Assembly (NCBI GenBank): GCA_025358155.1
Contig: JANYKR010000088.1
Location: forward strand, 1 to 50,062
DNA length: 50,062 nt
From: Betaproteobacteria bacterium
Lineage (GTDB): Bacteria; Pseudomonadota; Gammaproteobacteria; Burkholderiales; Burkholderiaceae_C
Reading direction: 5' to 3'
The position numbers and the translations under genes were made by a program. Below the pieces are notes generated by a model. That model saw nothing but the letters and a program-made list of their open reading frames with translations. It searched no databases and was not told the origin of the DNA. Of this stretch, positions 25,320 through 42,599 are shown in pieces. Within the stretch, counting starts at the first letter, position 1. Each line of letters starts with the position of its first letter.

Positions 25320-27178
25320 TCAAAACTGGTTGCACAGACTTTGGCAGGTGCTCGTGCAACGACTTCTGGGCGAACCGGACGATGGGCAACCTTCTTCGCA
25401 CTTGCTGACCCGAACCCTACTTTGCAAAGGCTCGTGCTGAGCCCTTTCCTCCGCCTCGCGGCGCGGCCGGTCGCGTTCGGCACGCGCAGCCCCCCTCCTT
25501 ACCCCCCCGGGGGGGCCTCGCGGTCTTCGCGTATTTGAGCCAACTGCATCGCCTTCTGAGCCTTTGGCAGCAGGCCCGGAACGTGTCAATGACTTTGCAG
25601 CACCATTTGTCATGAATTTACTGCGCAGGCTGGTGGTGATTTCTGTGCGACTGTCTCCGATGGTGGTGGGTTGATCCAAGCGGCCGTGGGCAGCGCATGG
25701 GGCTGCGCTCTCTTCCACAAGCGCAGCGTTCTGCTGCGTGGTCTGGTCCATCTGGCTAACGGCCTGTCCAACCTGTTGCACACCGTTGTTCTGTTCGACG
25801 CTGGCCGACGCAATCTCGGCCACAAGGTCGCTCACTCGCCGGATCGAGCCGACGATCTCGGCCATGGTCTTGCCGGCCTGATCGACCAAGGCCGTACCTT
25901 GCTCGACCTGTTCGACGCTGCGACCGATCAGCGACTTGATTTCCTTGGCGGCCTCGGCGCTGCGCTGGGCCAGGCTGCGCACTTCCGACGCAACCACCGC
26001 GAAGCCGTGGCCCTGTTCCCCAGCTCGCGCAGCTTCCACAGCTGCGTTCAAGGCCAGGATGTTGGTCTGGAATGCGATGCCGTCGATGACGCTGATGATG
26101 TTGCCGATCTTGCGGCTGCTGTCGTTGATACCTTGCATGGTGGTGACGACGCGGCCGAACACTTCTCCGCCCTGCGCCGCGACGGCAGATGCGCCTTGTG
26201 CCAGCTCGTTGGCCTGCTCGGCACTGTCGGCGTTGTTGCGCGCCGTGGTGCCTAGCTGCTCCATCGTGGCCGCTGTCTGCTGGAGGGCGCTGGCCTGCTG
26301 CTCGGTGCGGCTGGACAAGTCCTGGTTGCCCTGCGCGATTTGGGCGCTGGCCGTGGCCACGCTTTCAGAATTGTGGCGAACGTTCGAGACCACGGTCGTC
26401 AGGTTCCCGGACATAGACATCAGCGCCGACATGAGCTGCGAAACCTGATCGCGGCCGTCGCTGTCAACGCGTAGGGTCAGGTCGCCCGATGCCACGGCCT
26501 TGGCCATCTTCGCGGCATTCGCCACACCGGCACCGTGATCGAGCGCGTGGTGACCCATGCCAGGCATGCGCCCAGGACAACGCTCAGCAAGCCCACACCC
26601 ATCGAGATGCTGAGTACCGTGGCCTGCAGTGCTGCTGCAGCCTTCACTTCCATTTCGGATTCGCGGGTATTGATCTCGATGAGCTTGGCGATCGTTTTTT
26701 CGACTGCAGGGGACAGCTTGACCACCTGTGTTTTGTACAGCTTGGCCACATCTTCCGCCTTGCCCGCCACCGCTGCATCGCGAGCAGGCATCAGGCCCTC
26801 GGTGATGAAGATCATGCGTGCGGCGACGAACTCTTTCGACGCCTGCTTTTCATCGGCCGACATCTGCGTCGCCAAATAGGCATTGAGCAGGCTCGTGCTC
26901 TTCTCGACGTTGGCCTTGAACTCGGTGTCGCGCCGCTCCAGGTTGGCCGGCTCGGGGTTGACCATCATGTCCATCACCAGCACGCGGTTGCCGAGGCTCA
27001 GGCGGTTCAGCTCGGCCAATTGCGCGAGTACGACAACCCGGTTGTCGTACATCGACCGCAGCGACTCCCCCATGCGATGGACGCCCACCATTCCGACGCC
27101 GGTGATCACCAACGCCAGCAGCAAAACGACGACGAAGGCCGTGCCCAGGCGGCTACCGATCATGAAATTCTTGAGCAT
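25320..27178 (-). pseudogene. Methyl-accepting chemotaxis protein, frameshifted and 3'-truncated
   Basis: A chemoreceptor gene in two frames. The first piece (27178 to about 26525) gives MLKNFMIGSRLGTAFVVVLL with a transmembrane helix, a four-helix-bundle periplasmic sensor with an early MYDNRVVVLAQL segment, and the second membrane helix before TTRSITVP. The second frame (from about 26528) continues HAMP and the signalling domain with [17 protein letters not shown] and [20 protein letters not shown]. The break is at GTGTGG, where a duplicated GT (plus strand CACAC at 26523–26527) explains a +2 shift. Similarity ends near 25701 at [10 protein letters not shown]; the normal C-terminus is absent and the frame runs on through repeat-like DNA to 25320. 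Confidence 0.85.
25425..25520. repeat. GC-rich palindromic intergenic element
   Basis: A dense block of dyads follows the chemoreceptor 3' end: GGCTC/GAGCC around 25430–25445, GCG-rich symmetric segments near 25460–25480, and CCCCCCCGGGGGGG at 25502–25515. It has no coding character and resembles dispersed repeats seen next to genes in Burkholderiales. Whether it is repeated in this genome cannot be seen within the window. Confidence 0.4.
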
Positions 27179-27484
27179 CTTTTCAACCCCGATCTGAAAT
27201 GATGTGTACGACGATTTGCAGAAGTTACTTCTGCAACCCATCTGCTTGGTGCTTTCCGGTGGTCGTCAGTCGCAAGGAAAAATTGAGGCTTTTTGTAACG
27301 CAGATCGCATCGGGGTGAGGTGCGACGTCATCAGCAGTTCAACAGGCAGCAGCCCGCCTGTTGCCGCCGGTCATCTGCGCCGCAGCGCTGTGCGCCGGCG
27401 CAGCGGTCGCCGGGTCAGGCGTCGTGGCAGGCAGTTGCCCCTGGCCGCATGCCCGGCTTGGCCCCTCCCCCACGGGGGGCAGGC
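27179..27484. other. Non-coding interval between SDR operon and chemoreceptor
   Basis: No gene was recognised in about 300 bases. It contains CAACAGGC (27340–27347) pairing with GCCTGTTG (27356–27363) and several GC-rich dyads. The right half is the end of the dehydrogenase operon; the left half should hold the chemoreceptor promoter, but no clear -35/-10 pair was found. Confidence 0.5.
27461..27480 (-). terminator. Possible terminator hairpin of the RLP/TRAP operon
   Basis: CTCCCC and GGGGGG can pair around a CAC loop, five bases past the stop of the last operon gene. No U-tract follows, so the strength is uncertain. A second 8-bp stem lies at 27340–27363. Confidence 0.35.
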
Positions 27485-28246
27485 TCAGTGGATGTGCATC
27501 CCACCGCTCACGTCGAGCACCACCCCGGTGATGTAGGCCGACTGATCGGAGGCCAGAAACAAACAGGCATTGGCAATGTCGGCTGGCAGCGCCAGCCGGC
27601 CCAGCGGCACGTTGTCGGCGACGCGGCGCTTGCCGGCGTCGTCGATCTTGCCGACCAGCAGGTCGGTGTCGACCATGCCAGGCGCGACGGCGTTGGCGCG
27701 GATGCCGTCGGGGGCCAGTTCGCGGGCCATCGCCTTGGCCAGTGTCTGCAGGGCGCCCTTCGCGGCCGAGTAGTGCGGACCGCCGAGGATGCCGCCACCC
27801 CGTTGCGCCGCCACCGATCCCATGCAGACGATGGCGCCGCGACGGCGTTCGCGCATGTGCGGCACAACGGCGCGCGACATGTTGAAAGCGCCGCGCACGC
27901 TGCTGTCCATCACCAGGTCGTAGTCAGCCTGCGTGCTGTCCATCAGCCGCTGTGACTGGCTGACGCCAGCGTTGTTGACGAGGATGTCGATGCGGCCCAA
28001 CGCCTCCAGCACCTGCTGCACGGTGCGGCGGCAGAGGGCCTCGTCGCGCACGTCGCAGGCCAGGCCCAGGTGCCGGCCGGGTTGCGCTGCGCCCAGGCTG
28101 GCGGCGGCCTGCTCGGCGGCCGACCCGTCGAGGTCGAGGATGACGATGCGCGCGCCTTCGTCGGCAAAACGCTTGGCGGTTGCCCAGCCGATGCCGCGTG
28201 GCGACGCTGCGCCGGTGATGATGGCGACCTGGTCGTTGAGTTGCAT
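27485..28246 (-). CDS. SDR family oxidoreductase
   Basis: A classical short-chain dehydrogenase of 253 residues. Cofactor loop ITGAASPRGIGWATA (TGxxxGxG with a two-residue insertion), DLDGSAAE after the second strand favouring NAD(H), NNAG at about 92–95, catalytic Ser in GSVAAQRGGG, YSAAKGAL with Tyr and Lys, and a C-terminal GVVLDVSGGMHIH. The ninth-strand region APGMVDTDL is typical. It is the last gene of the six-gene minus-strand operon with the RuBisCO-like protein and is 16 bp after a second SDR gene. Its substrate is presumably a sugar-acid intermediate (inference). Confidence 0.88.
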   Translation of the reverse strand: MQLNDQVAIITGAASPRGIGWATAKRFADEGARIVILDLDGSAAEQAAASLGAAQPGRHLGLACDVRDEALCRRTVQQVLEALGRIDILVNNAGVSQSQRLMDSTQADYDLVMDSSVRGAFNMSRAVVPHMRERRRGAIVCMGSVAAQRGGGILGGPHYSAAKGALQTLAKAMARELAPDGIRANAVAPGMVDTDLLVGKIDDAGKRRVADNVPLGRLALPADIANACLFLASDQSAYITGVVLDVSGGMHIH

Positions 28247-28262
28247 GTCGGAGTCTCCTGAG

Positions 28263-29039
28263 TCACAAGCCGCGTGCGCCCGAGGCGAGAAAACCGCCGT
28301 CCACCGGCAGCACTACGCCCGAGGTGTAGGACGCGTCGTCCGACACCAGATACATCACCGCCGCGGCGACCTCGCCGGTGGTGCCGTAGCGGTTCATCGG
28401 GATCGCTTTCGAATATTCCTGGCGGAAGCGCTCGGTGTGCAACGCCTGCGTCATCGGCGTGTCCACCGGCCCGGGTGCCACCGCATTGGCGGTGATGCCG
28501 TGCTCGGCGAGTTCGACCGCCATCTGCCGCGTCAGCGCAATCACTGCGCCCTTGGACGTGCCGTAGGCCGTGCGCCCGCTGCCCACCGCGCGCATGCCGG
28601 CCACCGAGGCGATGTTGACGATGCGGCCCCAGCGCCGGTGCTGCATCAGCCGCGCTGCGGCCTGGGCGCACAGCAGCGTGCCGGTGACGTTGATGTTCAT
28701 CGTCGCGATGAAGTTGTCCAGCGGAAAGTCAATGAACGGAAAGACCTTGGCGATGCCGGCGCAGTTGACCAGGATGTCGCAGCGGCCGTGGACGCGCTTG
28801 ACCTGCTCGAAAGCCAGCGTGATCGACTCGGGGCGGCCGACGTCCAGCGCCAACGCCGCAGCGTGGCCGTTGGTCGCGCACAGGGCCTGCGCCGTCGCCT
28901 GGGCGACATCGAGGTCGATGTCGGCCACCAGCACCTGGTGGCCGGCAGCGGCCAGACGCCGGCAGACCTCGGCGCCAATACCCATCGCGCCGCCAGTGAC
29001 CAGCGCAACGCGGCGTTCTGAATTGTGGGGCGTCGTCAT
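28263..29039 (-). CDS. SDR family oxidoreductase
   Basis: A second classical SDR of 258 residues, distinct from its neighbour. Cofactor loop VTGGAMGIGAEV, DIDLDVAQ favouring NAD(H), NCAG in place of NNAG, NIASVAGMRA with the catalytic Ser and TAYGTSKGAVIAL with Tyr and Lys. APGPVDTPM and GVVLPVDGGFLA complete the family pattern. The start ATG at 29039 is used, as upstream residues lack similarity. With the adjacent SDR, it could perform two oxidation or epimerisation steps before the DUF1537 kinase. Confidence 0.88.
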   Translation of the reverse strand: MTTPHNSERRVALVTGGAMGIGAEVCRRLAAAGHQVLVADIDLDVAQATAQALCATNGHAAALALDVGRPESITLAFEQVKRVHGRCDILVNCAGIAKVFPFIDFPLDNFIATMNINVTGTLLCAQAAARLMQHRRWGRIVNIASVAGMRAVGSGRTAYGTSKGAVIALTRQMAVELAEHGITANAVAPGPVDTPMTQALHTERFRQEYSKAIPMNRYGTTGEVAAAVMYLVSDDASYTSGVVLPVDGGFLASGARGL

Positions 29040-29070
29040 GGGCGTCCTGAGGTGAATGGGTTGAGGATAT

Positions 29071-30945
29071 TCAGAGGAAGCCGATGGAGATCCACGGCAC
29101 CAGCGCAACGACCAGCAGGCCGACGAACAGCGCTGCCATGTAAGCCGCTATCGGCCCGATGCCGCTGTCTGGGTTGACGCGGCCGATGGCGCAAGCGGCG
29201 TAGTAGCCGACGCCAAACGGCGGCGCGAACAGGCCCATGCCCATCGCCAGGATCACCACCATCGCGTAGTGCACCTCATGGATGCCGACCGCCTTGGCGA
29301 TTGGGAACAGCAGCGGCCCGAACAGCACAATCGCCGGGATGCCTTCGAGCACACTGCCCAGCACGATGAAGGCAACGATGGACACCGCCATGAAGCTGGC
29401 CGCGCCGCCCGGAATGGCGCGCATTGCCTCGCTGAGGTCGCGCGAAAAACCCGACTGCGTCAGACCCCAGGCCATCGCGGTGGCGGCGCCGATGATCAGC
29501 AGGATCGACCCCGACAGGCTGGCGGTGTCGACCAGCATCGGGTAGACGCGTTTCCAGTCGAACTGCCGGTAGACAAAAATGCCGGCCAGCACGCCGTAGG
29601 CGATGCCGATGGTGGAGACCTCGGTCGCGGTGGCCACGCCTTCGACCACCGCAGCGCGGATGATGAAGGGCAGCGCCACCGCGGGCAGCGCAATCAGGAA
29701 GGTCTTGCCGATCTGCCGCCGGCTGGCGCGCTGCACGCCTTGCAGGTCTTCAGTGCGGTAGCGAAACCACACCACCACCACCAGCATCAGCGCCAACACC
29801 AGCCCGGGCAACAAGCCGCCGGTGAACAGCGCGGCGATCGACACGCCGGTGACCGATCCGATGGTGATCAGCACGATGCTGGGCGGGATCGTCTCGGTCT
29901 GCGCGCCGGTGGCTGCGAGCAGCGCCACCAGATCGCCCTCCTTGGCGCCGCGCTTGATCATTTCGGGGAACAGCACCGGTGCCACGGCAGCCATGTCGGC
30001 CGCCTTGGAGCCCGAGATGCCTGAGACCAGGTACATCGCGCCGAGCAGCACGTAGTGCAGCCCGCCGCGCACATGGCCCAGCAGGCTGGCCAGAAAAGCC
30101 ACCATCGCGCGCGCCATGCCGGTCATCTCGATCAGCTGGCCCAGAAACACGAACAGCGGCACCGACAGCAGGATCAGGTGGCTGACGCCTTCGTCCATGC
30201 GGCCGACGACGACCAGCACCGGGGTGTTGGTCGTCAGCATCACGTAGCCCATCGTCGCCAGGCCGAAAGCAAAGGCGATGGGCACACCGGCAAACACCGC
30301 GCCAGCCACGACGACAACGAAGAACACCACCAGATTCAGGTTGCCGAGCTGGCGCCACAGCGGCTGCAGCAGCGCCATGCCCACGATCAACCCGACCGTC
30401 AGGGCCAGCGCCTGCAGCACCTGGCGCGGGCGCCCCAGCTGCACCAGCCGCAGCAGCGCAAACAGCGCCATCGCGCCAAAGCCGGTGGCCATGGCCGCCA
30501 CGCGCCACGAGTTCTGGATGTCGAGCGCCGGCGTGTGCATCACCGCCTCTTCCACCGCGTACTCCCAGGCATACGGCAGGATCAGCAGCAGAAAGGCCAG
30601 CGCGGCGGTGGTGGCCAGCACGTCGAGAAAGGCGCGCTGGGCAGGCTGCAGCTTGCTGACGACGGCCGTCATGCGCATGTGATCGCCCCGCTCGAAGGCA
30701 ATGGCCGAACCCAGCATGGCCAGCCACAGGAACAGGATCGACGCCACCTCATCGGACCAGATCAGCGGATGGTGAAAGACGTAGCGTGCGATCACGCCGG
30801 CCAGCAGCACGCCGATCTCGGCGGCCACCAGCAGCGCCACCGGCACGCCGAGCAGCCGGGCCAGCGCGGTCTGCAGGCGTCGCGCCCACAGCGCCGCTGC
30901 ACCGGGCGGCGCCGCCTCGGCGTCGGGGGTGGGGACGGCCTGCAT
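29071..30945 (-). CDS. TRAP transporter fused DctQ–DctM permease
   Basis: A fusion of 624 residues. Residues 1–185 are the small DctQ subunit with four helices (LIWSDEVASILFLWLAMLG is typical); from about 190 the large DctM subunit of about 12 helices follows, with GVPIAFAFGLATMGY, LSVPLFVFLGQLIEMTG, YLVSGISGSKAADMAAVAPV and LFPIAKAVGIHEVHYAMVV. It is the sodium-coupled membrane part of a TRAP importer in the inner membrane, partnered with the binding protein encoded just upstream. It is clearly similar to the fused permease at 39813–41699. Confidence 0.92.
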   Translation of the reverse strand: MQAVPTPDAEAAPPGAAALWARRLQTALARLLGVPVALLVAAEIGVLLAGVIARYVFHHPLIWSDEVASILFLWLAMLGSAIAFERGDHMRMTAVVSKLQPAQRAFLDVLATTAALAFLLLILPYAWEYAVEEAVMHTPALDIQNSWRVAAMATGFGAMALFALLRLVQLGRPRQVLQALALTVGLIVGMALLQPLWRQLGNLNLVVFFVVVVAGAVFAGVPIAFAFGLATMGYVMLTTNTPVLVVVGRMDEGVSHLILLSVPLFVFLGQLIEMTGMARAMVAFLASLLGHVRGGLHYVLLGAMYLVSGISGSKAADMAAVAPVLFPEMIKRGAKEGDLVALLAATGAQTETIPPSIVLITIGSVTGVSIAALFTGGLLPGLVLALMLVVVVWFRYRTEDLQGVQRASRRQIGKTFLIALPAVALPFIIRAAVVEGVATATEVSTIGIAYGVLAGIFVYRQFDWKRVYPMLVDTASLSGSILLIIGAATAMAWGLTQSGFSRDLSEAMRAIPGGAASFMAVSIVAFIVLGSVLEGIPAIVLFGPLLFPIAKAVGIHEVHYAMVVILAMGMGLFAPPFGVGYYAACAIGRVNPDSGIGPIAAYMAALFVGLLVVALVPWISIGFL

Positions 30946-30949
30946 CGCC

Positions 30950-31990
30950 TCAGCCCAGCTTGCCTGTGTACTTCTCCAGCAGCGCCCAGGCTTCTTCGCC
31001 GTACTTCTGGCGCCACTCGGCGTAGAAGCCTGACTTCACCAGCGTGCTGCGGAAGGCGTCGAGCTTGGGATCGTTGAACGTCAGGCCCTTGGTGGCCAGC
31101 TCCGCACGCAACGACGAATTGAGCTTGGCACCGTCGGCGCGCATGTCCAGCGCGGCCTGGTTCAAGTGCTTGGCAATGATGGGGCGCGCCTTCTCGGGGA
31201 TGCGGTCCCACACCTTCTGGTTGGTCATGCACCACCAGCCGTCCCACATGTGGTTGGTCATGGAGCAGAACTTCTGCACCTCGTACAGCTTGGCGATGGA
31301 GATGATCGCCAGCGGGTTCTCCTGCCCATCAACCACCTTGGTCTGCAGCGACGAGTAGGTCTCGGCGAAGCTGATCGAGGTGGGCGCGGCGCCCAGGCTC
31401 TTGAACAGCGAGGTCCACAGCGGGCTCACCGGCACGCGCATCTTCATGCCCTTCAAGTCATCGGGCGTGTTGATCGGCTTGACGCTGTTGGTGATCTGGC
31501 GGAAGCCCGAGCTCCAGATGGTGTCCATCGCCAGCAGGCCGACCTTGGGGAACTGGCCGCGCAGGAACTTGCCCAGCTCGCCGTCCAGCGCCTTGTGTAC
31601 CGCGTCGTCGTTGGCCCACGCAAAACCCAGGCCCCACATCGACGAGATCGGCACCAGCTGCGACAGCACGTTGACGCCGGAGATGGTGAAGAACTCCAGG
31701 CCACCAGCGCGCAGCTGCGACAGCATGTCCGAGTCGTTGCCGAGCTGGTTGTTCGGGAAGACGTTGATCTGAACCTGGCCGCCGGTTTCTTTCAGGATGC
31801 GCTCACTGGCCTCCACCGCACGCACGTTCAGCGGGTGCGTGGCCGGCACGTTGGTGCCGAACTTGTAGCTGAACTCGGGCGCGGCGTGGGCGCTGCGCGG
31901 CAGGATCAGCGCGGGCGCGGTGATTAACGCGGGTGTGGCAATCAGCGCAGCGCTGCGCGTCAGGGCCTGACGGCGGGTGATGTCGAACAT
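30950..31990 (-). CDS. TRAP transporter substrate-binding protein DctP
   Basis: A periplasmic solute-binding protein of 346 residues, the specificity part of the TRAP importer. The N-terminus MFDITRRQALTRSAALIATP with a long hydrophobic region and cut after AHAA suggests a twin-arginine-like or Sec signal. The mature part has FGTNVPATHPLNVR, INVFPNNQLGNDSDMLSQL, a typical DctP DTIWSSGFRQITNS segment and TWDGQENPL-like VVDGQENPLAIIS. Conserved binding-site Arg is within KMRVPVSPLW. The ligand is probably a carboxylate sugar, inferred from the operon. The start at 31990 avoids an unsupported extension. Confidence 0.9.
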   Translation of the reverse strand: MFDITRRQALTRSAALIATPALITAPALILPRSAHAAPEFSYKFGTNVPATHPLNVRAVEASERILKETGGQVQINVFPNNQLGNDSDMLSQLRAGGLEFFTISGVNVLSQLVPISSMWGLGFAWANDDAVHKALDGELGKFLRGQFPKVGLLAMDTIWSSGFRQITNSVKPINTPDDLKGMKMRVPVSPLWTSLFKSLGAAPTSISFAETYSSLQTKVVDGQENPLAIISIAKLYEVQKFCSMTNHMWDGWWCMTNQKVWDRIPEKARPIIAKHLNQAALDMRADGAKLNSSLRAELATKGLTFNDPKLDAFRSTLVKSGFYAEWRQKYGEEAWALLEKYTGKLG

Positions 31991-32031
31991 GGTCAATCTC
32001 CTCGGGCTGGGGTTGGGTGGTGCTGAAGGTT

Positions 32032-33450
32032 TCAGCCGCTGTGGCTGCCGCCGCGCAGTGCGGTGATGAAGTAGTCGGCCTGGCCCATCTGCCCGCCTTT
32101 CAAGGCGAGCTGCAGCGTGCGCAGGTGCAGCTCGCGCGACAACACGCGGCACAGCGGCGCGCCCGGCGCCAGGCGCGCGGCAATCAGCAGCGCGTCGGGC
32201 GCCAGGCGCTGGGTGATCTGACTGGCGGTGTCGCCGCCCGAGATCACCAGGCGGCGCAGCGGCACGGCACGCAGCACCGCATCGACGAGCTCGCCCAGGC
32301 GCTGGCCGAGCAGCCGGCCACCCTGGTGTTTGGCCTGGTCGCGGCTGGCGCCACCGGCCACCAGGGCGTCAAGCATGGCGGCGATGCGCGGGTCTTGCGG
32401 GCCCCGCGCGGTGTGCAGCATCACGCTGCGGCCCTGGCGCAGCGCAGCGGTCGCCCGCTCGGTCAGGCCATCCAGGCTGCGCTGCCAGCCGCTCTCGGCC
32501 ACCAGCGCGACGGCCTCCACCGGCAGATCGGCAAAGCCGGCGGCCAGCGCGGCGTCGATCTGCAAGGCGCTCAGCGGCGATGCGCTGCCCGACACCGCCA
32601 ACAACTGCGGCACGGCATCGACGGTCTCCAGCCCGGCGGCTACGCTGGCTGGCAGCGTGCCGCTCTCGCGCCACCACTGCGTGAGCGCGTATTCCAGGCC
32701 CGACGAGCCGACGCAGAACAGCGGCCCGCCGCGCTGCCCGCGCTGATGCGCCAGACGCTCCAGCAGGCGGCCGACCTCGGTCAGGTGCGCGGGCGTGGCG
32801 GCGTCAAACAGCACCGCGCCATGCTGTTGTGCGGCCAGTCGTTCAAGCTCGGCGTCCATCGTCGCCCGGTCGGTGGCGAAATTTGGCAGGGTGAACCCGG
32901 CAATCGGCATAGCGGTCTGCGCCGCCAGGTGGCGTGCCAGGTCGGCCTCGTGCATCGGCGTCACTGGATGCGCGCTCATGATCGGGTGGCGGTCGAGCCG
33001 GTGCACCAGGCCGTCGGTGGCCGAGCGGGCAAACAGGTTGCCGAACAGGCAGTAGCGCCCCAGCGCCGGTGTGCCAGCGACGATGGGCATCACGTCGTCG
33101 CCGCAGGGGCCACGCGCCAAGTCCATCACGCAGCCGATGCTGCCAATGGCGGGCGAACTGTCAAAGGTGGAACAGACCTTGTAGTGCAGCAGCGGCGTCG
33201 GCAGTCGGGCCAGGGCCGCCAGCACCGGCGGCAACGCCTGCGCCAGCTCGGCCGTCGACATGCCTCGGCTGTCGCCGGCGATGCCGATGGCATCGAACGG
33301 GCCCAGTTCGCGCAGCGTCCGGGTATCGGGCACCCGCAGGAACAGCGCGCAGCGCAGGCCGGCAAAGGCCAGCACCTCCAGCGCGTCGGTCGAGCCGGTG
33401 AAGTCGTCGCCGTAGAAGGCGAGCCGGAGGGTAGTTTGCGGCGCGGTCAT
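32032..33450 (-). CDS. DUF1537 four-carbon acid sugar kinase family protein
   Basis: A 472-residue member of the DUF1537 kinase family (OtnK, DtnK, OiaK), which phosphorylates sugar acids such as 3-oxo-tetronates or 3-oxo-isoapionate with ATP. N-terminal domain: LRLAFYGDDFTGSTDALEVL; C-terminal nucleotide domain: VMLHTARGPQDPRI and LVISGGDTASQI. The next gene, ending four bases after this one begins, encodes a RuBisCO-like protein; this pair is the arrangement known in D-apionate catabolism, where OiaK feeds RuBisCO-like enzymes. The exact substrate is not shown by sequence. Confidence 0.85.
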   Translation of the reverse strand: MTAPQTTLRLAFYGDDFTGSTDALEVLAFAGLRCALFLRVPDTRTLRELGPFDAIGIAGDSRGMSTAELAQALPPVLAALARLPTPLLHYKVCSTFDSSPAIGSIGCVMDLARGPCGDDVMPIVAGTPALGRYCLFGNLFARSATDGLVHRLDRHPIMSAHPVTPMHEADLARHLAAQTAMPIAGFTLPNFATDRATMDAELERLAAQQHGAVLFDAATPAHLTEVGRLLERLAHQRGQRGGPLFCVGSSGLEYALTQWWRESGTLPASVAAGLETVDAVPQLLAVSGSASPLSALQIDAALAAGFADLPVEAVALVAESGWQRSLDGLTERATAALRQGRSVMLHTARGPQDPRIAAMLDALVAGGASRDQAKHQGGRLLGQRLGELVDAVLRAVPLRRLVISGGDTASQITQRLAPDALLIAARLAPGAPLCRVLSRELHLRTLQLALKGGQMGQADYFITALRGGSHSG

Positions 33451-33454
33451 GGCC

Positions 33455-34729
33455 TCACAGCGCCTTGAAGTGGGCCAGCGCGCGGCGCAGTGCCGGATGG
33501 TCTTGCGCGTAGCTGTCGAGGCTGGCGCCGGCAAGCGCCGCCTCCCAGCCTTCGCGCATGCTGGCGACGCCGGCGGCGATGCCGTCGGGGTGGCCGATGA
33601 TGCCGCCGCCAGCCAGGTGCATCAGGTCGGTGGAGCCGAGCCGCGCGTACAGGTCGGGCGCCTGGCCGGCCCATTGGCCCGACGAGAACACCGGCATCAG
33701 CGGGCGCACGCCGGCAAAGGCCGCCAAGCAGCTGCGGGCCGAGCGGATGACCGAATCGTCGGGCTCCCAGAACTTGCTGCGGATGCCGTTGACGTGCAGG
33801 TGGTCCACGCCCGCCAGCCGCCACAACTTCTGGTAAGCCTCGAACGCAAAACCCAGCCCGGCGTGGCGCGTGAGGGCGCCCCAGCCGTTGCGGTGGCCGT
33901 GGATCGGCAACCGGGCGTGGCGGCGCAGGTGCTCGACCCCGGCAAAGCCGACCCAGTTGGCGCTGACCATCACGCAGGTGCCACCGGCCGCCAGCACCGC
34001 ATCGTGACGCTGCAGCATCTGGTCGATGGACCCCGAGATGTTGATCGCATACATCGGCATGCGGCCAATGCGATCAGCGTGGCGTTGCAGCACCGGCATC
34101 ACCGCCGCCAGCCGCTGATCGAAGGGCGCGTAGGGCGGGTCGGCAATGAGTTCGTCGTCCTTGATGAAGTCGATGCCGGCGCTGCACAGGCTGTCCACCA
34201 GCTCGGCGGTCTGCTGCGGGGTCAGGCCGATGCTGGGCTTGATGATGGTGCCGATCAGCGGCCGCTCGAACACACCCGCGAGCCTTCGGGTGCCTTCGAT
34301 GCCAAAGCCCGGCCCGGCAAAACCCGCCGCATAGTCGAGCGGCAGGTCCAGATCGAGCAAGCGCAGGCCGGTGACTTCACCCAGCTCGAACAGGTTGCCG
34401 GCCACCGTGGCGAGCAGGCTTGACAGGTTGTGGCCGACGTTGGCCACCGGGAAGGCGATTTCAACCTCGGCACGGTGGAACACGCCGTCGTGCGGACGGC
34501 GGTCAATGTAGGCGCTGGACAGGGTCGGCGCCAGCACCGGGGGCAGGTTGTCGATGCGCACGACGCGGGCCCGCGAGCGCTCTTTCAGCGCGTCGGTTTC
34601 GCCGGGCAAGGACAAGAAGGTGCCGCTGGACTGCTCGCCGGCAATCACCTGCGCAGCGTGTTCGGCAGGGATTGAACTCTCGACGAAGTAGCGCGCGGTG
34701 AACTCGGCGCGGGCGGGGGGGGGTGGCAT
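33455..34729 (-). CDS. RuBisCO-like protein (type IV), candidate sugar-acid phosphate decarboxylase/transcarboxylase
   Basis: A 424-residue RuBisCO large-chain homologue. Compared with true RuBisCO, the catalytic positions look kept: GTIIKPSIGL carries K175 (residue 164), GIDFIKDDE carries the carbamylated K201 with D203 and E204 (190, 192, 193), HGHRN carries H294 and R295 (279, 280), HVNGIRSK gives H327 and K334 at proper spacing (312 and 319), and SGQ and HLAGGGIIGHPDG match the phosphate loop. Family OiaX/OiaT members split 3-oxo-isoapionate 4-phosphate. The N-terminus is encoded across a run of nine C residues directly after the ATG. It heads the operon. Confidence 0.88.
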   Translation of the reverse strand: MPPPPARAEFTARYFVESSIPAEHAAQVIAGEQSSGTFLSLPGETDALKERSRARVVRIDNLPPVLAPTLSSAYIDRRPHDGVFHRAEVEIAFPVANVGHNLSSLLATVAGNLFELGEVTGLRLLDLDLPLDYAAGFAGPGFGIEGTRRLAGVFERPLIGTIIKPSIGLTPQQTAELVDSLCSAGIDFIKDDELIADPPYAPFDQRLAAVMPVLQRHADRIGRMPMYAINISGSIDQMLQRHDAVLAAGGTCVMVSANWVGFAGVEHLRRHARLPIHGHRNGWGALTRHAGLGFAFEAYQKLWRLAGVDHLHVNGIRSKFWEPDDSVIRSARSCLAAFAGVRPLMPVFSSGQWAGQAPDLYARLGSTDLMHLAGGGIIGHPDGIAAGVASMREGWEAALAGASLDSYAQDHPALRRALAHFKAL

Positions 34730-34779
34730 CGGGTCTGTGATATTTTTTCAACCTGTCGACGCAAGAATAGATGCCAATC

Positions 34780-34792
34780 TGCACGTTGTGCA
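34780..34792. promoter_or_regulatory. LysR-type T-N11-A operator
   Basis: TGCACGTTGTGCA is a perfect 5-bp inverted repeat around GTT, with T and A spaced by 11 bases as in LysR-regulator boxes, and sits in the 128-bp region between the divergent lysR and RuBisCO-like genes. TCAACCTGT occurs on either side, at 34748–34756 and 34808–34816. The dyad probably binds the adjacent LysR protein and controls both directions. Binding is inferred. Confidence 0.6.
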
Positions 34793-34857
34793 AACGATAT
34801 GAATTCGTCAACCTGTGAAGTAAACTCACACAAACACCGGGAAAACCCGAAGCCGTC

Positions 34858-35742
34858 ATGCCCTCCTTGCGCTTGTCCCTGAACGCGCTGCGCGCCTTCG
34901 AAGCCACCGCCCGCCTGCGCAGCTTCAGCGCTGCGGCCGATGAGTTGTCGGTGACGCATGGCGCGGTCAGCCGTCACGTCCGCTCGCTTGAAGATTCGCT
35001 GGGTCTGGCCTTGCTGACGCGCAGCGCACAAGGCACCGCGCCGACCCCTGAGGGCCAGCGCCTGGCCGAGGATTTGTCGGTGGCCTTCAACCTGATCGAA
35101 ACCAGCGTCGAGCAGCTGACGCCTGGTCCGCTGACGCTGTCGTGCTCGGAGTCGATCATGATGTACTGGCTGATTCCGCGACTGGCGCGCTTCCAGGCGG
35201 CCAACCCAGGCATCGAGCTGCGCTTCAACATGAGCCACGGCGCGCTGGACTTTGCACGCGACAGCGTCAGTGTGGCGATCCGGCTGTCGAGCATCGACGC
35301 ACCGAAAGGCGTGCTGAGCAGCGATGTGGTCGAGGAGTGGATCGGCCCGGTTTGCTCACCGGCCTACCTGGGTAGCCTGCAACTGCAGACCGTCGCCGAT
35401 CTGGCGCGGGCGCGCCTGATGGTGTCGCGCACCCGCCCCAACGCCTGGGCAGACTGGCTGCGCTGCGGCGGGCATGAGGCAGCGGGCCCCTGGCAGGTGG
35501 ACGAAACCTTCGACCATTTCTACCTGCTGATCCAGGCCGCCAAATGCGGCCTGGGCATGGCCAACGTGCCGCGCATGCTGGTGCGCGACGACCTCGACAA
35601 CGGCACCCTGACAGCGCCACTGGGGTTCTCACCAGGGCCGCACAAGCTGGCGGTCTGGGTCTCGCAGCACCTGAGCCGGCGGGCGGATACGGTCAAGCTC
35701 GTCGACTGGCTGACGGACGAACTGCGCTTGATCGAGCGTTAG
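34858..35742 (+). CDS. LysR family transcriptional regulator
   Basis: A 294-residue regulator similar to the GcvA-like group. The N-terminal wHTH is LSLNALRAFEATARLRSFSA followed by AADELSVTHGAVSRHVRSLE, and a periplasmic-binding-like effector domain follows from about 90 to 290 (LTLSCSESIMMYWLIPRLAR, GLGMANVPRMLV). It is divergent from the RuBisCO-like/DUF1537/TRAP operon with a dyad operator between them, so it likely senses the sugar-acid substrate or a pathway intermediate. The start follows a weak ribosome-binding site. Confidence 0.9.
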   Translation: MPSLRLSLNALRAFEATARLRSFSAAADELSVTHGAVSRHVRSLEDSLGLALLTRSAQGTAPTPEGQRLAEDLSVAFNLIETSVEQLTPGPLTLSCSESIMMYWLIPRLARFQAANPGIELRFNMSHGALDFARDSVSVAIRLSSIDAPKGVLSSDVVEEWIGPVCSPAYLGSLQLQTVADLARARLMVSRTRPNAWADWLRCGGHEAAGPWQVDETFDHFYLLIQAAKCGLGMANVPRMLVRDDLDNGTLTAPLGFSPGPHKLAVWVSQHLSRRADTVKLVDWLTDELRLIER

Positions 35743-35754
35743 CCTCACGGCACA

Positions 35755-36912
35755 TCAGCCCCTGCTGCGCAAAGGCCGGAAGAACTCGCGGATCTCGTGC
35801 GCAAGCACCTCGGGTTGCTCCAGCGCGGCAAAGTGGCCGCCCTTGGGCTGTGTCGTCCAGCGGCGGATGTCGCTGTACTGGCGCGCCGCCACCGAGCGTG
35901 GCGGGCGCAGGATTTCACGCGGGAACTCGACGTAGCCCATCGGCACGTCCACTGTCTTGCCGGCCGGCACCGACCACTCGCGGTGCAGCCGCGCGTAGTA
36001 CGGCCAGAACGACGAGCCCACCGCGCCCTGGGCCCAGTACAGGGTGATGTTGGCCAGCATCTCGTCGCGCGGCACCGCGCTGGCGGGGTCGCCGTCGTTG
36101 TCGGTCCAGCTGCGAAACTTCTCGACGATCCAGGCGGCCAGCCCGGCGGGCGAATCATTCAGGCCAAACGCCAGCGTCTGCGGCTTCGTGCCCTGTATCG
36201 CCTGGTAGCCGGTCTCCTCCTTCAAGAAGTGGTTCAGCTCGTCCAGAAACCGCCGCTCCTCGACGGTCGGCGCCTGCAGCATCTGCGGGTCGCGCCGCAC
36301 CGCCAGCAAATTCAGGTGGATGCCGATTACCTTCTCAGCATGGCTGTAGCCCAGCCGCGAGCTGACGAACGCACCCCAGTCGCCACCCTGCGCGGCAAAG
36401 CGCGGGTAGCCGAGCACATCGGTCATCAGCGTGGCAAACACGTCGGCCATCTCCTCGACACCAAAGCGCGGTTGCCCCGGCTTGAACGACAGCGTAAAGC
36501 CCGGCAGTGACGGCGCGACAACGGTGAACGCGTCGGCCGGGTCGCCGCCAAAGCGTGCGGGGTCGGTGAGCAGCGGGATCAGGCGCCGGAACTCGAACAC
36601 CGACCCCGGCCAGCCGTGCGACAGCAGCAAGGGCAGCGGCGCCGGCCCCTGGCCTGGCTCGTGGATGAAGTGCAGATCGATGCCAGCCAGCGGCACGGTG
36701 AACTGGCGGAATTGGTTCAGCACGGCCTCGTGTTCGCGCCAGTTGAAAGCCGTGCGCCAGTGCTCGACCAGCGCCTGCATGTAGGCCAGGCTGGTGCCAG
36801 TGGACCAGGCAGGGCCGGGCGGCTCGTCGGGCCAGCGGGTGTGGGCCAGGCGACGGCGCAGGTCGTCGAGCACGCTGTCATCAACGTGGAGGGAGAAAGG
36901 TGTTGGCGTCAT
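35755..36912 (-). CDS. Epoxide hydrolase, EHN-domain family
   Basis: An alpha/beta hydrolase of 385 residues of the microsomal-type epoxide hydrolase group. An N-terminal EHN segment (residues 5–115: DDSVLDDLRRRLAHTRWPDE) precedes the core with HGWPGS (99–104) and the nucleophile Asp at 178 in QGGDWGAF. The catalytic His is in GGHFAALEQPE near 360. No membrane anchor is visible, unlike the mammalian enzymes. Its gene is 14 bp downstream of the AEC permease gene and convergent with lysR. The substrate is unknown. Confidence 0.87.
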   Translation of the reverse strand: MTPTPFSLHVDDSVLDDLRRRLAHTRWPDEPPGPAWSTGTSLAYMQALVEHWRTAFNWREHEAVLNQFRQFTVPLAGIDLHFIHEPGQGPAPLPLLLSHGWPGSVFEFRRLIPLLTDPARFGGDPADAFTVVAPSLPGFTLSFKPGQPRFGVEEMADVFATLMTDVLGYPRFAAQGGDWGAFVSSRLGYSHAEKVIGIHLNLLAVRRDPQMLQAPTVEERRFLDELNHFLKEETGYQAIQGTKPQTLAFGLNDSPAGLAAWIVEKFRSWTDNDGDPASAVPRDEMLANITLYWAQGAVGSSFWPYYARLHREWSVPAGKTVDVPMGYVEFPREILRPPRSVAARQYSDIRRWTTQPKGGHFAALEQPEVLAHEIREFFRPLRSRG

Positions 36913-36926
36913 GTCAAGGCCTGCTT

Positions 36927-37892
36927 TCAGATGAGCCACGCCACCGCAGCAGAGAAGCTGACGAAGGACGCTGCGGTGGTAAAGAGCACGATACGTGCAA
37001 TCCGGCCGGCATCGGCGCCAAAGCGCTCGGCCAGCATCGGCACGTTGCTGGCACTGGGCAAAGCCGCGACCAGCGCCAGCACGGTGACGGAGAAGTGATC
37101 CAGCGGCGCGCCAGCGGCCATCGCCAGCCGCCCTGCGCCCAGCACCAGTGCCGGGTGCAGCAGCAGCTTGAAGACGACGATCTGCCAGACGCCGTCAGCC
37201 CGCCCAGGCGCGGCCGTGACCCAGACCGACTGCAGCCGTGACCGCGCCAGCATCGCCCCCAGCGTGAACAACGCCACCGGCGATGCCGCATCGGCCAGCA
37301 TGCCCACTGGCTTGTCCACCATGACGGGCAAGGCCAGGCCAGAGGCGGACACCAGACCACCCAGCGCAATCGACCAGGGCAAGGGGTTGGTCGCCATGCC
37401 CTTGAGCGCATGCAGCACTGCCCGGCCTGCACCACCGGCCTGCCCGGTGCTGAAGCGCGAGAGTGCAATACACAGCGACGAGGTCAACACCATGTCAACC
37501 GCCAGCGCCACGATGGCCGGGGCTGCGGCGCGCTCGCCCAGCAGCCGCACCAGCAGCGGCACGCCGATGAAACCGGTGTTCGGGAACGCCGCCACCAGTG
37601 CACCAAAGGACGCGTCACTCCAGCCGATGGGCCCGCGCCGGGTGGCCAGAACGGCCAATCCCACCATCACCAGCGCGCAGAGCAAGTAGGTGACAAAGAC
37701 GCTGGGGTTGAGCAGCTGCGCGATCGGCGTGGCAGCGCCAAAGCGGAACAACATGCAGGGCAGCGCAAAGAACAGCACGAAGACATTGAGCCCGAGGATG
37801 GAATCCAGCGGCAGCCAGCGCAAACGTGTCACGCCATAGCCGCACAACACGAGCGCGAAGAACGGGGAGGTGACCTCGATGATGTTGAGCAT
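36927..37892 (-). CDS. AEC family transporter
   Basis: A polytopic protein of 321 residues with about ten helices of the auxin-efflux-carrier (AEC/MdcF) family, mainly transporting malonate or other organic acids or effluxing small metabolites. Typical is the first helix FFALVLCGYGVTRLRWLP, a middle GAALVAAFPNTGFIGVPLL-like segment (GALVAAFPNTGFIGVPLLVR), and the last helices LALVAALPSASNVPMLA. ATG at 37892 avoids an unsupported extension. The 171 bp upstream to the TPP enzyme gene contains no gene; it may share the transcript of the second TRAP locus. Confidence 0.85.
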   Translation of the reverse strand: MLNIIEVTSPFFALVLCGYGVTRLRWLPLDSILGLNVFVLFFALPCMLFRFGAATPIAQLLNPSVFVTYLLCALVMVGLAVLATRRGPIGWSDASFGALVAAFPNTGFIGVPLLVRLLGERAAAPAIVALAVDMVLTSSLCIALSRFSTGQAGGAGRAVLHALKGMATNPLPWSIALGGLVSASGLALPVMVDKPVGMLADAASPVALFTLGAMLARSRLQSVWVTAAPGRADGVWQIVVFKLLLHPALVLGAGRLAMAAGAPLDHFSVTVLALVAALPSASNVPMLAERFGADAGRIARIVLFTTAASFVSFSAAVAWLI

Positions 37893-38063
37893 GGGCAAAT
37901 GTAGCCCTCGGCCTGTGCTCAGCCTGCCTGCATCCGCAGCATTCGCAGCAACTGGCGCCAGCCGGCCCCGGCCATCACCACGCGGGCACCGGTGACCGGC
38001 GCAACCGGACCACAAAGGCTGGGGCAACCACTGCGCGTTGTCATGCCGCCCTGGGGCGCGCGC

Positions 38064-39797
38064 TCATGCATTGCGCCAGTTGCGTTCGGCCTCGTCCCAG
38101 GCGCCCAGGGCCTGCAGGTCGGGCACCCAGGCCAGTCCGGACTTGGCATCCGACGACGCGGCTTCGGGCGTCACCAGCACGTCCAGCAGCGCGGGCCGGC
38201 CGGCCTGCACCACGGCCAGGGCGCGCGCGATGGCGCCGTCCAGGTCCTCCACCCGCTCCACGCGCTCGCCATGCAGGTTGAAGGCGCGGGCCATCGCGGC
38301 ATGGTCGGCAAACTGCAGCCGCGTGCCCACCACTTTGCCGTGCGTCTCCTGCTGGTCGCGCACCTCAATGGCCCAGCTGCCGTTGTTGGCCACCACGATC
38401 AGCACCGGCGCACGGTGCCGCGCGGCGGTGTCGATCTCCATCGCGTTGAAGCCGAAGGCACCGTCGCCCGTGGCCACCACCACGGTGCGGCCCGGGCAGG
38501 CCAGCGCGGCCGCCACACCGAAAGGCGTGCCGATGCCGATGCAGCCCAGCGGCCCGGGGTCGAGGTAGGTGGTGGCCGGCAGCCCGACACGGGCGAAGCT
38601 GAGGAAGTCGCCGCCGTCGGCCACCACCACGGCGTCGGCTGGCAGCGCGTCGCGCAGCGCGGCAAGCAGGCGGTTGGGATGCATCAGGCCGTCGCTGCCG
38701 GGCGCGGCCTGGCGCATCGAGGCCACCAGTTTGTCGGCGCGCGCCTGGTGCTTGACGCGGGTGGCGCGTGCCCAGTCGCCGTCGACCGACGGTACCCGGT
38801 TGCCGGCGCGGTCCGCGATGGCTTGCAGCGCGGCGGCCGGTGTGGCCAGCAGCTCGGCGGCGCCACGGCGGTTGTCACGCAGTTCGGCCGCGTTGTCGGC
38901 GATGCGCACGAAGCGCGCTTGGCCGAACACCGCCGGCGAGCCGTAGGCCAGCTGGAAGTCCAGCTTGCGTCCGACGGTAAGGATCAGGTCGACCTCACCC
39001 ATCACCGAGCCGCGCATGGCTGCCACCACCGCCGGATGGTCATCGGGTACCAGGCCGCGGCTCTCGCCGGTGTTCAGGTACAGCGCGCCCAGCGCGTCGA
39101 GCAGGCGGCGCAGCTCCGGGCCTGCACCTTTGGCGCCTCGGCCGCTGATGACCAGCGGCCGCCTGGCCGACCACAACGCCTCGACCGCAGCGTCCACCGC
39201 CTGGGGGTCCGGCAGCATCTGGGCCTTGGGCCGGGGCGCCAGCAACTCGGGCAGTTGCACGGCATGCGACACCGTCGCCCGCAGCGTGTCCACCGGAAAG
39301 TCGATGTAAGCCGGGCCGGGCTCGCCGGCCTCGCCAAGCGCACGAGCCACCGCCTCGGCCAGCTCTTGCAGCACCAGGTCTGGCTCGCGCACGGTGCGGG
39401 CATAGCGGGTGAGCGGGCGCACGAAGTCGGTGTGCACCATGTCCTGTAACGCGCCACGGTTCTCCTGCGCACGCGGCGGCGTGCCGCTGATGACCAGCAC
39501 CGGTGCCCGCGCTACATGGGCATTGGCGATGCCGGTCATCGCGTTGGTGACACCCGGCCCGGCGGTGACCAGGGCCACGCCCAAGGTGCCGGTCAGCTCG
39601 GCATGGGCATGGGCCATATAGACGGCGGCGCGCTCGTCACGCACGTCGATGATGCGGATGCCCTCGGCGTCCAGCCGCATCCAGATCGGCATGATGTGGC
39701 CGCCGCAGAGTGCAAAGACGCGGTCCACGCCGCGGGCCTTGAGAAAGCGCGCCACCAGCGCCGCGGCGCTGTGCTCGGAGATTTTTGCAGTGGTCAT
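38064..39797 (-). CDS. Thiamine pyrophosphate-dependent enzyme, acetolactate synthase-like
   Basis: A 577-residue ThDP enzyme with the three-domain order Pyr, central, PP. The activating Glu is E55 in RDERAAVYMAHA, and TPP binding is GDGAFGFNAM (444–453) with NN at 471–472. Sequence similarity is to acetolactate synthase large subunits and to 2-hydroxyacyl-CoA lyases or sulfoacetaldehyde/oxalyl-type lyases, and no regulatory subunit is nearby. The enzyme probably condenses or cleaves a 2-keto or 2-hydroxy acid that enters through the TRAP system. The exact reaction is not predictable. It starts 15 bp after the TRAP permease. Confidence 0.85.
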   Translation of the reverse strand: MTTAKISEHSAAALVARFLKARGVDRVFALCGGHIMPIWMRLDAEGIRIIDVRDERAAVYMAHAHAELTGTLGVALVTAGPGVTNAMTGIANAHVARAPVLVISGTPPRAQENRGALQDMVHTDFVRPLTRYARTVREPDLVLQELAEAVARALGEAGEPGPAYIDFPVDTLRATVSHAVQLPELLAPRPKAQMLPDPQAVDAAVEALWSARRPLVISGRGAKGAGPELRRLLDALGALYLNTGESRGLVPDDHPAVVAAMRGSVMGEVDLILTVGRKLDFQLAYGSPAVFGQARFVRIADNAAELRDNRRGAAELLATPAAALQAIADRAGNRVPSVDGDWARATRVKHQARADKLVASMRQAAPGSDGLMHPNRLLAALRDALPADAVVVADGGDFLSFARVGLPATTYLDPGPLGCIGIGTPFGVAAALACPGRTVVVATGDGAFGFNAMEIDTAARHRAPVLIVVANNGSWAIEVRDQQETHGKVVGTRLQFADHAAMARAFNLHGERVERVEDLDGAIARALAVVQAGRPALLDVLVTPEAASSDAKSGLAWVPDLQALGAWDEAERNWRNA

Positions 39798-41708: not shown

Positions 41709-42599
41709 TCAGCCGATCTGGCCGGCGTACTGCTGCAGCAACGCCCAGGCCTCGGGTCCGAACTTCTCCTTGGCCTGGGTGTAGAAGCCGCCGGCGACCA
41801 GCGCCTTCTGGAATGCGCTGTTGTCCACGGTGTTGAAGGTCAGGCCCTTGCCTTCGAGCTGCTTTTGCAGATCGGTGTTGGCGCGGGCGATGTCGTCGCG
41901 CTGCTTGCGTCCCGCTGCGTTGATGTGCTTGGCGATCAGCTGCTGCAGGTCGGCCGGCACCGTCTTCCACACCTTGCCGCCGGCCATGAACCAGAAGCCG
42001 TCCCAGGAATGGTTGGTCAGCGAGCAGAACTTCTGCACCTCGTAGAACTTGGCCGATTCGATCAGCGCGAGCGGGTTCTCCTGGCCATCGGCCACCTTGG
42101 TCTGCAGCGCCTGGTAGGCCTCTGACAGCGGCAGACTCACCGGTGCGGCGCCCAGCGTCTTGAACATGCTGACCCACAGCGGCACCACCGGCACGCGGAT
42201 CTTGAAGCCCTTGAGATCATCGGGCGTGCGGATCGGCTTGGTGCTGGTGGTGATCTGGCGGAAGCCGTTGTCCCACACCGTGGAGAACGGCACCAGGCCG
42301 ACCTTCTCGATCGCTGCACGGATGTGGGTGCCCACCGCACCGTCCATCGCCGCCCACACCTTGTCATAGCCGCTGAAGGCAAAGCCCACGCCGGTGATGG
42401 CCGTCACCGGAATCAGCGTGGACATCACGGTGCCCGGAAAGGTTGCCAACTCCAGCGCACCAGAGCGTACCTGCGACATCATGTCCGAGTCACTGCCAAG
42501 CTGGTTGTTGGGAAACAGCTCAATCACCACCCGACCCTGCGTTTCGGCAGCAATCGCAGCGATCGCCTCCTTCAGGCGCACGTTCACCGAGTGCGTCAA
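41709..42599 (-). pseudogene. TRAP substrate-binding protein DctP, 5'-truncated by deletion
   Basis: About 296 residues remain of a DctP of about 346. From THSVNVRLKEAIA onward the sequence follows the intact DctP at 30950 (THPLNVR matches THSVNVR) with VVIELFPNNQLGSDSDMMS and ADGQENPLALIE. About 50 N-terminal residues, including the signal peptide, are missing, and the 5' end abuts the acyl-CoA ligase fragment. A TTG near 42599 is the only apparent start. Without a signal peptide the product cannot reach the periplasm, and the operon promoter has been lost too. Confidence 0.8.

Follow-up and report, generated by a model that had tools for sequence, protein, structure and literature searches.

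A conserved RuBisCO-like protein and kinase operon with short-chain dehydrogenases in a Betaproteobacteria bacterium: a candidate pathway for a 2-C-branched sugar acid

The window, a 50,062-nucleotide stretch of DNA from a Betaproteobacteria bacterium (GenBank assembly GCA_025358155.1, contig JANYKR010000088.1), carries a compact, probably LysR-regulated operon that combines a RuBisCO-like protein (RLP) and a DUF1537-family kinase with two short-chain dehydrogenases/reductases (SDR-A and SDR-B) and a tripartite ATP-independent periplasmic (TRAP) importer (Table 1). The interpretation that we favor, with somewhat better than even confidence, is that the operon breaks down a 2-C-branched sugar acid, which would join the D-apionate (OiaK-OiaT) route past the ApnO step. 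By its sequence the RLP belongs to the OiaX/OiaT family, where it falls into a clade of its own; within this clade an SDR stands in place of ApnO, and this arrangement is a conserved variant of the apionate RLP module.

From the RLP to SDR-B, the six minus-strand genes are separated by gaps of 4, 41, 4, 31, and 16 nt, a spacing that fits one transcription unit. All genes named in an earlier note, which had been made from the letters of this stretch, were recovered on the minus strand at the same coordinates by open reading frames and family searches; the kinase start was placed at the ATG at 33450, a longer open reading frame start being judged unlikely. The kinship to OiaX or OiaT and to OiaK proposed in that note is borne out by profile searches, in which OiaX and OiaK were the best models by a wide margin: the RLP matched PF00016 (E 2e-73) and the OiaX model (NF042437, 3-oxo-isoapionate-4-phosphate decarboxylase; E 6e-145, 483 bits against a curated cut-off of 700), followed by form III RuBisCO (253 bits) and the MtnW models (145-182 bits), and the kinase matched OiaK (NF042436, 3-oxo-isoapionate kinase; E 1e-127, 427 bits, likewise under a cut-off of 700) ahead of OtnK (163 bits). 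Both DUF1537-family domains of the kinase exceed their gathering scores (PF07005, 180 bits; PF17042, 101 bits), and the DctP, DctQ, and DctM domains all lie above their cut-offs, so that the operon has its own TRAP importer, as had been expected. Family searches of the operon proteins found no ApnO and, in agreement with the note, no lactonase, isomerase, or class II aldolase. A search of the organism's own genome (5.1 Mb, 98% complete, 330 contigs) with PF16896, the ApnO family, also gave no match, but 14 control genomes were equally silent and this absence is weak; the window RLP is the one RuBisCO-family gene in this genome.

Table 1. Features of the RLP operon and of the adjacent operon, in window coordinates.
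Feature	Position	Strand	Length	Remarks
SDR-B	27485-28246	-	253 aa	accessory
SDR-A	28263-29039	-	258 aa	the dehydrogenase best conserved in the clade
TRAP permease DctQM, fused	29071-30945	-	624 aa	
TRAP solute-binding protein DctP	30950-31990	-	346 aa	nearest solved structure PDB 4oan (RPB_2686)
DUF1537-family (four-carbon acid sugar) kinase	32032-33450	-	472 aa	nearest to OiaK
RLP	33455-34729	-	424 aa	OiaX/OiaT family; keeps RuBisCO residues absent from OiaX
Two-part conserved site, presumed LysR operator	34791-34830	-		between LysR and RLP
LysR-family regulator, GcvA-like	34858-35742	+		best NCBIfam match GcvA; divergent from operon
Epoxide-hydrolase-like	35755-36939			
Mem_trans	36927-38027			
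2-Hydroxyacyl-CoA lyase	38064-39797			805 bits, cut-off 600
DctQM of adjacent TRAP operon	39813-41699			
DctP of adjacent TRAP operon	41709-42599	-		54% identical to window DctP; also nearest to 4oan
AMP-binding enzyme	42394-43743	+		divergent
GntR	43744-44421			divergent

In a 136-row tree the window RLP falls into a 54-row clade with an inner clade of 44 rows (support 99 for both); OiaX forms a separate eight-row clade (support 100) that does not include it, and the rows of Ancylobacter, Microvirga, and Cupriavidus necator N-1, which are linked to ApnO, are also apart from the window clade. Of 398 genomes sampled from the phylum, 6 have matches that exceed the OiaX cut-off. OiaT is the name of the Xanthobacter autotrophicus RLP; 24 rows chosen by tree position serve here as presumptive OiaT (an ApnO neighbor was not seen for every row), and two Xanthobacteraceae rows that stand in for the characterized protein, L131 and L119, are placed elsewhere in the tree than the window RLP. 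The X. autotrophicus RLP is a 3-oxo-isoapionate-4-phosphate transcarboxylase/hydrolase (Carter et al. 2018, cited in PMC6302742). In this tree, of the kind that the earlier note had proposed as a check, the RLP has a clade of its own apart from OiaX, and the presumptive OiaT rows do not join it. The closest solved structure is that of a Burkholderia fungorum RLP (PDB 3nwr; 48% identity, TM score 0.92-0.97), whose title names no function; the AlphaFold model of the window RLP has a mean predicted local distance difference test score of 92. A role of the RLP as a methionine-salvage enolase of the MtnW kind, or as a RuBisCO that fixes CO2, can draw on general fold similarity and was rejected as extremely unlikely: the MtnW and form III models score far below OiaX, K177 is lost, the partners are a kinase and a TRAP importer, and the operon contains no salvage or Calvin-cycle gene. 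The grouping with MtnW that the earlier note had named as its refutation was accordingly not seen in the model scores; the outgroup rows of the tree are not records named MtnW or RuBisCO.

The active site was compared in the numbering of the form I RuBisCO of C. necator H16. The window RLP keeps E60, T65, N123, K175, K201, D203, E204, and H294, as well as R295, H327, K334, S379, G381, G403, and G404, and differs from form I RuBisCO by S at K177, W at H298, and W at E336; the full set of RuBisCO forms I-III (K175/K177/K201/D203/E204/H294/K334) is thus broken at K177. The six positions that the note had listed as kept (K175, K201, D203, E204, H294, and K334) are indeed retained, and this conservation supports its view that genuine C-C bond chemistry is plausible. 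Residues E60, N123, and H327 are present in all 47 window-clade rows and in 24 of 24 presumptive OiaT rows, and are replaced by D60, G123, and Q327 in eight of eight OiaX rows; in the other 55 rows of the family, some of which lie between the window clade and OiaX, they persist in 54, 54, and 55 cases, respectively, which makes their loss in OiaX the derived state. The active site is therefore RuBisCO-like, as in the ApnO-linked rows other than OiaX, and the window RLP shares with all presumptive OiaT rows the set E60, N123, K175, K201, D203, E204, H294, H327, K334, and S379. Loss of the three residues would fit a pure decarboxylase, and their retention an enzyme that still has to carboxylate and to hydrolyze; since the clade keeps what the OiaX decarboxylases lost, OiaT-like cleavage appears, with moderate confidence, likelier than decarboxylation.

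Of the two reactions that the note had left side by side, the hydrolytic one thus gains from the OiaT-like residues, and decarboxylation loses by the missing OiaX-like ones. Decarboxylation of the OiaX type, to a tetrulose phosphate and CO2, is unlikely on balance, even though OiaX is the best NCBIfam model, the window clade joins the OiaX-holding part of the tree (with weak support, 81), and a W two positions after K334 and another three after S379 are common to the window RLP and OiaX; at these positions, mostly W on the window side, the presumptive OiaT rows have S/C/A and T/S/G, respectively. Other rows in the same part of the tree also keep E60, N123, and H327, the window RLP is 44-47% identical to OiaX and 51-56% to the presumptive OiaT set, and no tetrulose-phosphate isomerase, for which no model search was made, was noticed among the annotated neighbors. 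On the combined evidence of score, tree position, and residues, membership in OiaX itself was rejected.

The canonical D-apiose/D-apionate locus (L163; by annotation L167; partly L164) comprises an ATP-binding cassette (ABC) importer, a Gfo/Idh protein, a lactonase, NanR, RLP, kinase, and a protein with a phosphogluconate dehydrogenase C-terminal domain (PGDH_C); it shares with the window the RLP-kinase pair, but the window operon has no lactonase, Gfo/Idh or PGDH_C protein, sugar ABC importer, or NanR, and SDR, LysR, and TRAP genes accompany the pair instead of the ApnO, NanR, and ABC genes of the OiaT setting. The apiose locus of Rhizobium leguminosarum WSM1325 contains NanR, OiaX, kinase, PGDH_C protein, ABC importer, Gfo/Idh, and a lactonase (429 aa seen; 755 bits against the cut-off of 750 for the D-apionate lactonase ApnL); the Microvirga locus has the same gene set by annotation, the lactonase being taken from an unscanned "hypothetical protein," and the Shinella locus, whose visible stretch shows no PGDH_C gene, has the rest of the apiose set. 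The PGDH_C protein of L038, from the same cluster as the apiose-locus one, matches PDB 5t57, which we take to be ApnO, with 464 bits. Because of this match, and because the Gfo/Idh gene stands beside the lactonase gene, ApnO is taken here as the PGDH_C-family protein and the Gfo/Idh gene as a candidate apiose dehydrogenase; the Gfo/Idh assignment of ApnO in the earlier note was abandoned.

Both window SDRs are classical members of their family, with an adh_short match, a glycine-rich loop, and YxxxK; in SDR-A, an Asp within VADIDL is presumed to signify NAD preference. The position of these enzymes was evaluated across 48 window-clade loci, mostly Burkholderiales, by profile hits within 6.5 kb of the RLP, as gene calling had missed kinases that lie under antisense reading frames. 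Among the 38 loci with full flanks (at least 2.5 kb upstream and at least 5.5 kb downstream), 30 have an SDR only, three a zinc-type medium-chain dehydrogenase/reductase (MDR) only, three ApnO only, one both SDR and ApnO, and one none of them, so that 37 carry a dehydrogenase of these kinds and 36 exactly one kind; the ten short-flank loci add four with SDR, one with ApnO, and five with none. Mutual exclusion of the kinds gives a Fisher p of 2e-5, for rows that are not independent, and on an earlier 110-row tree, with SDR labels cut differently from the 48-locus table, the SDR label changed 11 times against a shuffled mean of 30.6, a value as low being reached in 0 of 500 shuffles. The claim that two SDRs take the place of ApnO therefore stands for one of them: an SDR occurs in 35 of the 48 loci, and SDR-A has orthologs in 24 loci besides the window (61-81% identity; 25 at 60% or more with the window counted), whereas SDR-B has them in just three other clade loci, one a partial match, and was rejected as a core gene. 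The loci of Paraburkholderia, Caballeronia, Herbaspirillum, and Chitinasiproducens carry a different SDR (37-42% identity).

The RLP-kinase pair also recurs in other company. A zinc-type MDR adjoins it in Rhodoferax and Pullulanibacillus/Bacilli loci (L059, L060, L064, L102, L110, and L122). An Agrobacterium locus outside the window clade (L166) combines LysR, RLP, kinase, SDR, and a 2-keto-3-deoxygluconate permease, which indicates more than one origin, or transfer, of the SDR pairing. Loci of Bacteroidota, Verrucomicrobiota, and Planctomycetota (L101, L105, L112, L113, L116, L124, and L128) join RLP and kinase to an Asp/Glu-racemase-family protein and an SBF-type transporter, as does L126 of unassigned phylum; no ApnO was seen at these eight loci, and they are another variant of the RLP-kinase module. 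A plasmid of the archaeon Halalkalicoccus (L168) carries RLP, kinase, and PGDH_C (ApnO-type) genes, and an Azospirillum locus (L170) has an acetolactate-synthase-like enzyme, a 3-keto-5-aminohexanoate cleavage protein, TRAP, a VOC protein, RLP, and kinase.

A second line of evidence is the site between LysR and RLP, with the consensus TGTGAGTTTT-n2-TCACAG-n8-GAAATCATATCGTTTG, which we infer to be bound by LysR. A matrix was built from 28 sites chosen by pattern; on 15 unused clade loci, six score at least 19 at the expected place (one of them, L135, nearly identical to a used locus; among the site loci, L088 and L135 are the same species), with 14.9 for L059 and 9.7 for L133. All 12 loci in which an SDR stands alone upstream of LysR have, as their best site within 300 nt of the SDR start, one that looks similar by eye, with scores of 23.6, 22.9, 22.1, 22.1, 19.3, 17.4, 10.0, 8.6, 6.7, 6.7, 6.7, and 2.4. 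In the background, 2000 windows from non-clade loci, the 95% point is 3.3 and the highest score 14.6; six of the 12 sites score at least 17 against 0 of 2000 background windows and 11 of 12 exceed the 95% point, with the qualification that two stronger sites of the control loci, in L102 (23.9) and L122 (16.7), fell outside the windows drawn. Through the shared site, the SDR is linked to the pathway by evidence that does not depend on gene order in the operon. In the organism's own genome, a pattern search found one perfect site, that of the window, and one with two mismatches; a backwards control pattern gave one.

Since SDR, MDR, and ApnO are exchanged within one clade, and since the RLP catalytic residues are identical between its ApnO-linked and SDR-linked members and the upstream site is common to SDR-, MDR-, and ApnO-linked loci, the operon could be suspected of degrading D-apionate itself, with SDR-A as a non-homologous ApnO replacement that oxidizes C2 before an acyloin rearrangement yields 3-oxo-isoapionate. 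This, too, seems unlikely, if anything a little more so than decarboxylation: as a family, SDRs are not known to possess a metal site like that which serves ketol-acid shifts; the lactonase, Gfo/Idh, and sugar ABC genes are missing from the window operon; and Azohydromonas lata (G439, L053) holds both an SDR-type and an ApnO-type locus in one genome, which argues for different entry compounds. The alternative readings discussed here overlap, and their likelihoods need not add up to one.

The transport genes bear on what this entry compound might be. The solved structure nearest to the window DctP, at 60% identity, is RPB_2686 of Rhodopseudomonas palustris HaA2 (PDB 4oan; TM score 0.85-0.95), whose ligand, modeled in density, we take to be (S)-2-acetolactate. 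Acetolactate is a 2-hydroxy-2-methyl-3-oxo acid, and a small analog of 3-oxo-isoapionate. A review lists 2-acetolactate among new TRAP ligands (PMC5812351). Next to the RLP operon lies a second TRAP operon with a 2-hydroxyacyl-CoA lyase and a divergent AMP-binding enzyme, which looks like a 2-hydroxyisobutyrate-type lyase cluster and resembles the gene set described for 2-hydroxyisobutyrate (PMC7176365). Both adjacent TRAP importers would thus suggest uptake of C2-branched 2-hydroxy acids; in some relatives of the RLP operon, an MFS transporter or a TRAP importer of another type takes this place. The acetolactate ligand presumed for 4oan and the methyl-branched 2-hydroxy acids suggested by the adjacent operon lend some weight to another substrate, either a methyl-branched sugar acid (e.g., 2-C-methyl-erythronate, converted to acetate and 3-phosphoglycerate), a sugar acid that has no branch, or a dicarboxylate; this is unlikely, as the OiaK-type kinase and the OiaX/OiaT-family RLP would favor a hydroxymethyl compound. 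Far more doubtful is the idea that the clade degrades larger, plant-made 2-C-branched acids such as 2-carboxy-D-arabinitol (hamamelonate), in which case the SDR would form a 3-keto acid, the kinase would phosphorylate it, and the RLP would run the last steps of RuBisCO, hydrolysis of a 2-carboxy-3-keto sugar phosphate, to yield 3-phosphoglycerate and glycerate. This compound, described in PMC9833046, is the dephosphorylated form of the RuBisCO night inhibitor 2-carboxy-D-arabinitol 1-phosphate; if this idea were true, a RuBisCO relative would consume the backbone of a RuBisCO inhibitor.

The favored pathway, the catabolism of a 2-C-branched sugar acid via an OiaK-OiaT route, would begin with import of a C2-branched 2-hydroxy acid by DctP and DctQM, for which isoapionate (2-C-hydroxymethyl tetronate) fits best. 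SDR-A with NAD would oxidize the C3 hydroxyl to a 3-oxo acid such as 3-oxo-isoapionate, as the gene exchange suggests; an SDR could replace ApnO because the branch of isoapionate is already at C2 and no rearrangement is needed. The OiaK-like kinase would, as judged by its family, phosphorylate O4, and the RLP would move the carboxylate and hydrolyze the C-C bond in the manner of OiaT to 3-phosphoglycerate and glycolate or a similar C2 acid, the products that we presume for OiaT. This last step is proposed on the basis of the retained RuBisCO residues and of pyruvate kinase or enolase neighbors in some relatives: pyruvate kinase occurs within 6.5 kb of the RLP in seven of 48 clade loci, and the RLP of Cupriavidus pinatubonensis is surrounded by enolase, pyruvate kinase, and phosphoenolpyruvate carboxylase, although otnK/otnC, also present there, could explain these neighbors. 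Glycolate could be used, since the organism's own genome encodes a glyoxylate carboligase, with 1164 bits against a cut-off of 711, as well as a GlcD-like protein (485 bits, under the cut-off of 568).

As a caveat, several observations weigh against this pathway. The RLP and the kinase both fall short of the curated cut-offs for OiaX and OiaK; the window clade joins, if weakly, the OiaX-holding part of the tree and not the presumptive OiaT rows, and OiaT is represented in the comparison by stand-in Xanthobacteraceae rows and by no characterized OiaT sequence. The best model labels of the SDRs are generic, and the full-flank locus L070 has neither SDR, MDR, nor ApnO. The upstream site was not found by matrix scan in L062, L090, and L134, and four loci of the Limnohabitans type (L079, L081, L083, and L086) lack it where it would be expected. 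Forty-one of the 48 clade loci lack a pyruvate kinase within 6.5 kb of the RLP, the presumed ligand of 4oan was modeled into density, and we know of no occurrence of isoapionate as a free natural product.

Two frame anomalies were noticed in the surroundings of the operon. At 42394-42599, the adjacent DctP (minus strand) and AMP-binding (plus strand) frames overlap head to head, both seemingly without their 5' ends; the DctP aligns from residue 39 of 4oan and the AMP-binding match begins at profile position 81, and the overlap seems to reflect a deletion or an assembly fault. On the other side, a methyl-accepting chemotaxis protein (25320-27241, minus strand) is split into a sensor part (26477-27241) and a signaling part (25320-26567) with overlapping frames, apparently by a frameshift or an assembly fault. 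The epoxide-hydrolase-like gene at 35755-36939 was dropped as a conserved pathway part, as its automatic label rested on a score of 47, compared to 451-595 for true members.

Among the matches listed in a search of the open-licence literature, no title concerned an SDR-linked RLP operon. Dehydrogenases of at least three unrelated families accompany the RLP-kinase pair of apiose catabolism, and the version linked to an SDR is conserved, with members in Burkholderiales, Pseudomonas, Bradyrhizobium, and Chimaeribacter. The E60/N123/H327 pattern may serve as a marker for shifts of RuBisCO-type active sites between decarboxylation, transcarboxylation, and hydrolysis, and this small operon offers a way to a new branched sugar-acid substrate.

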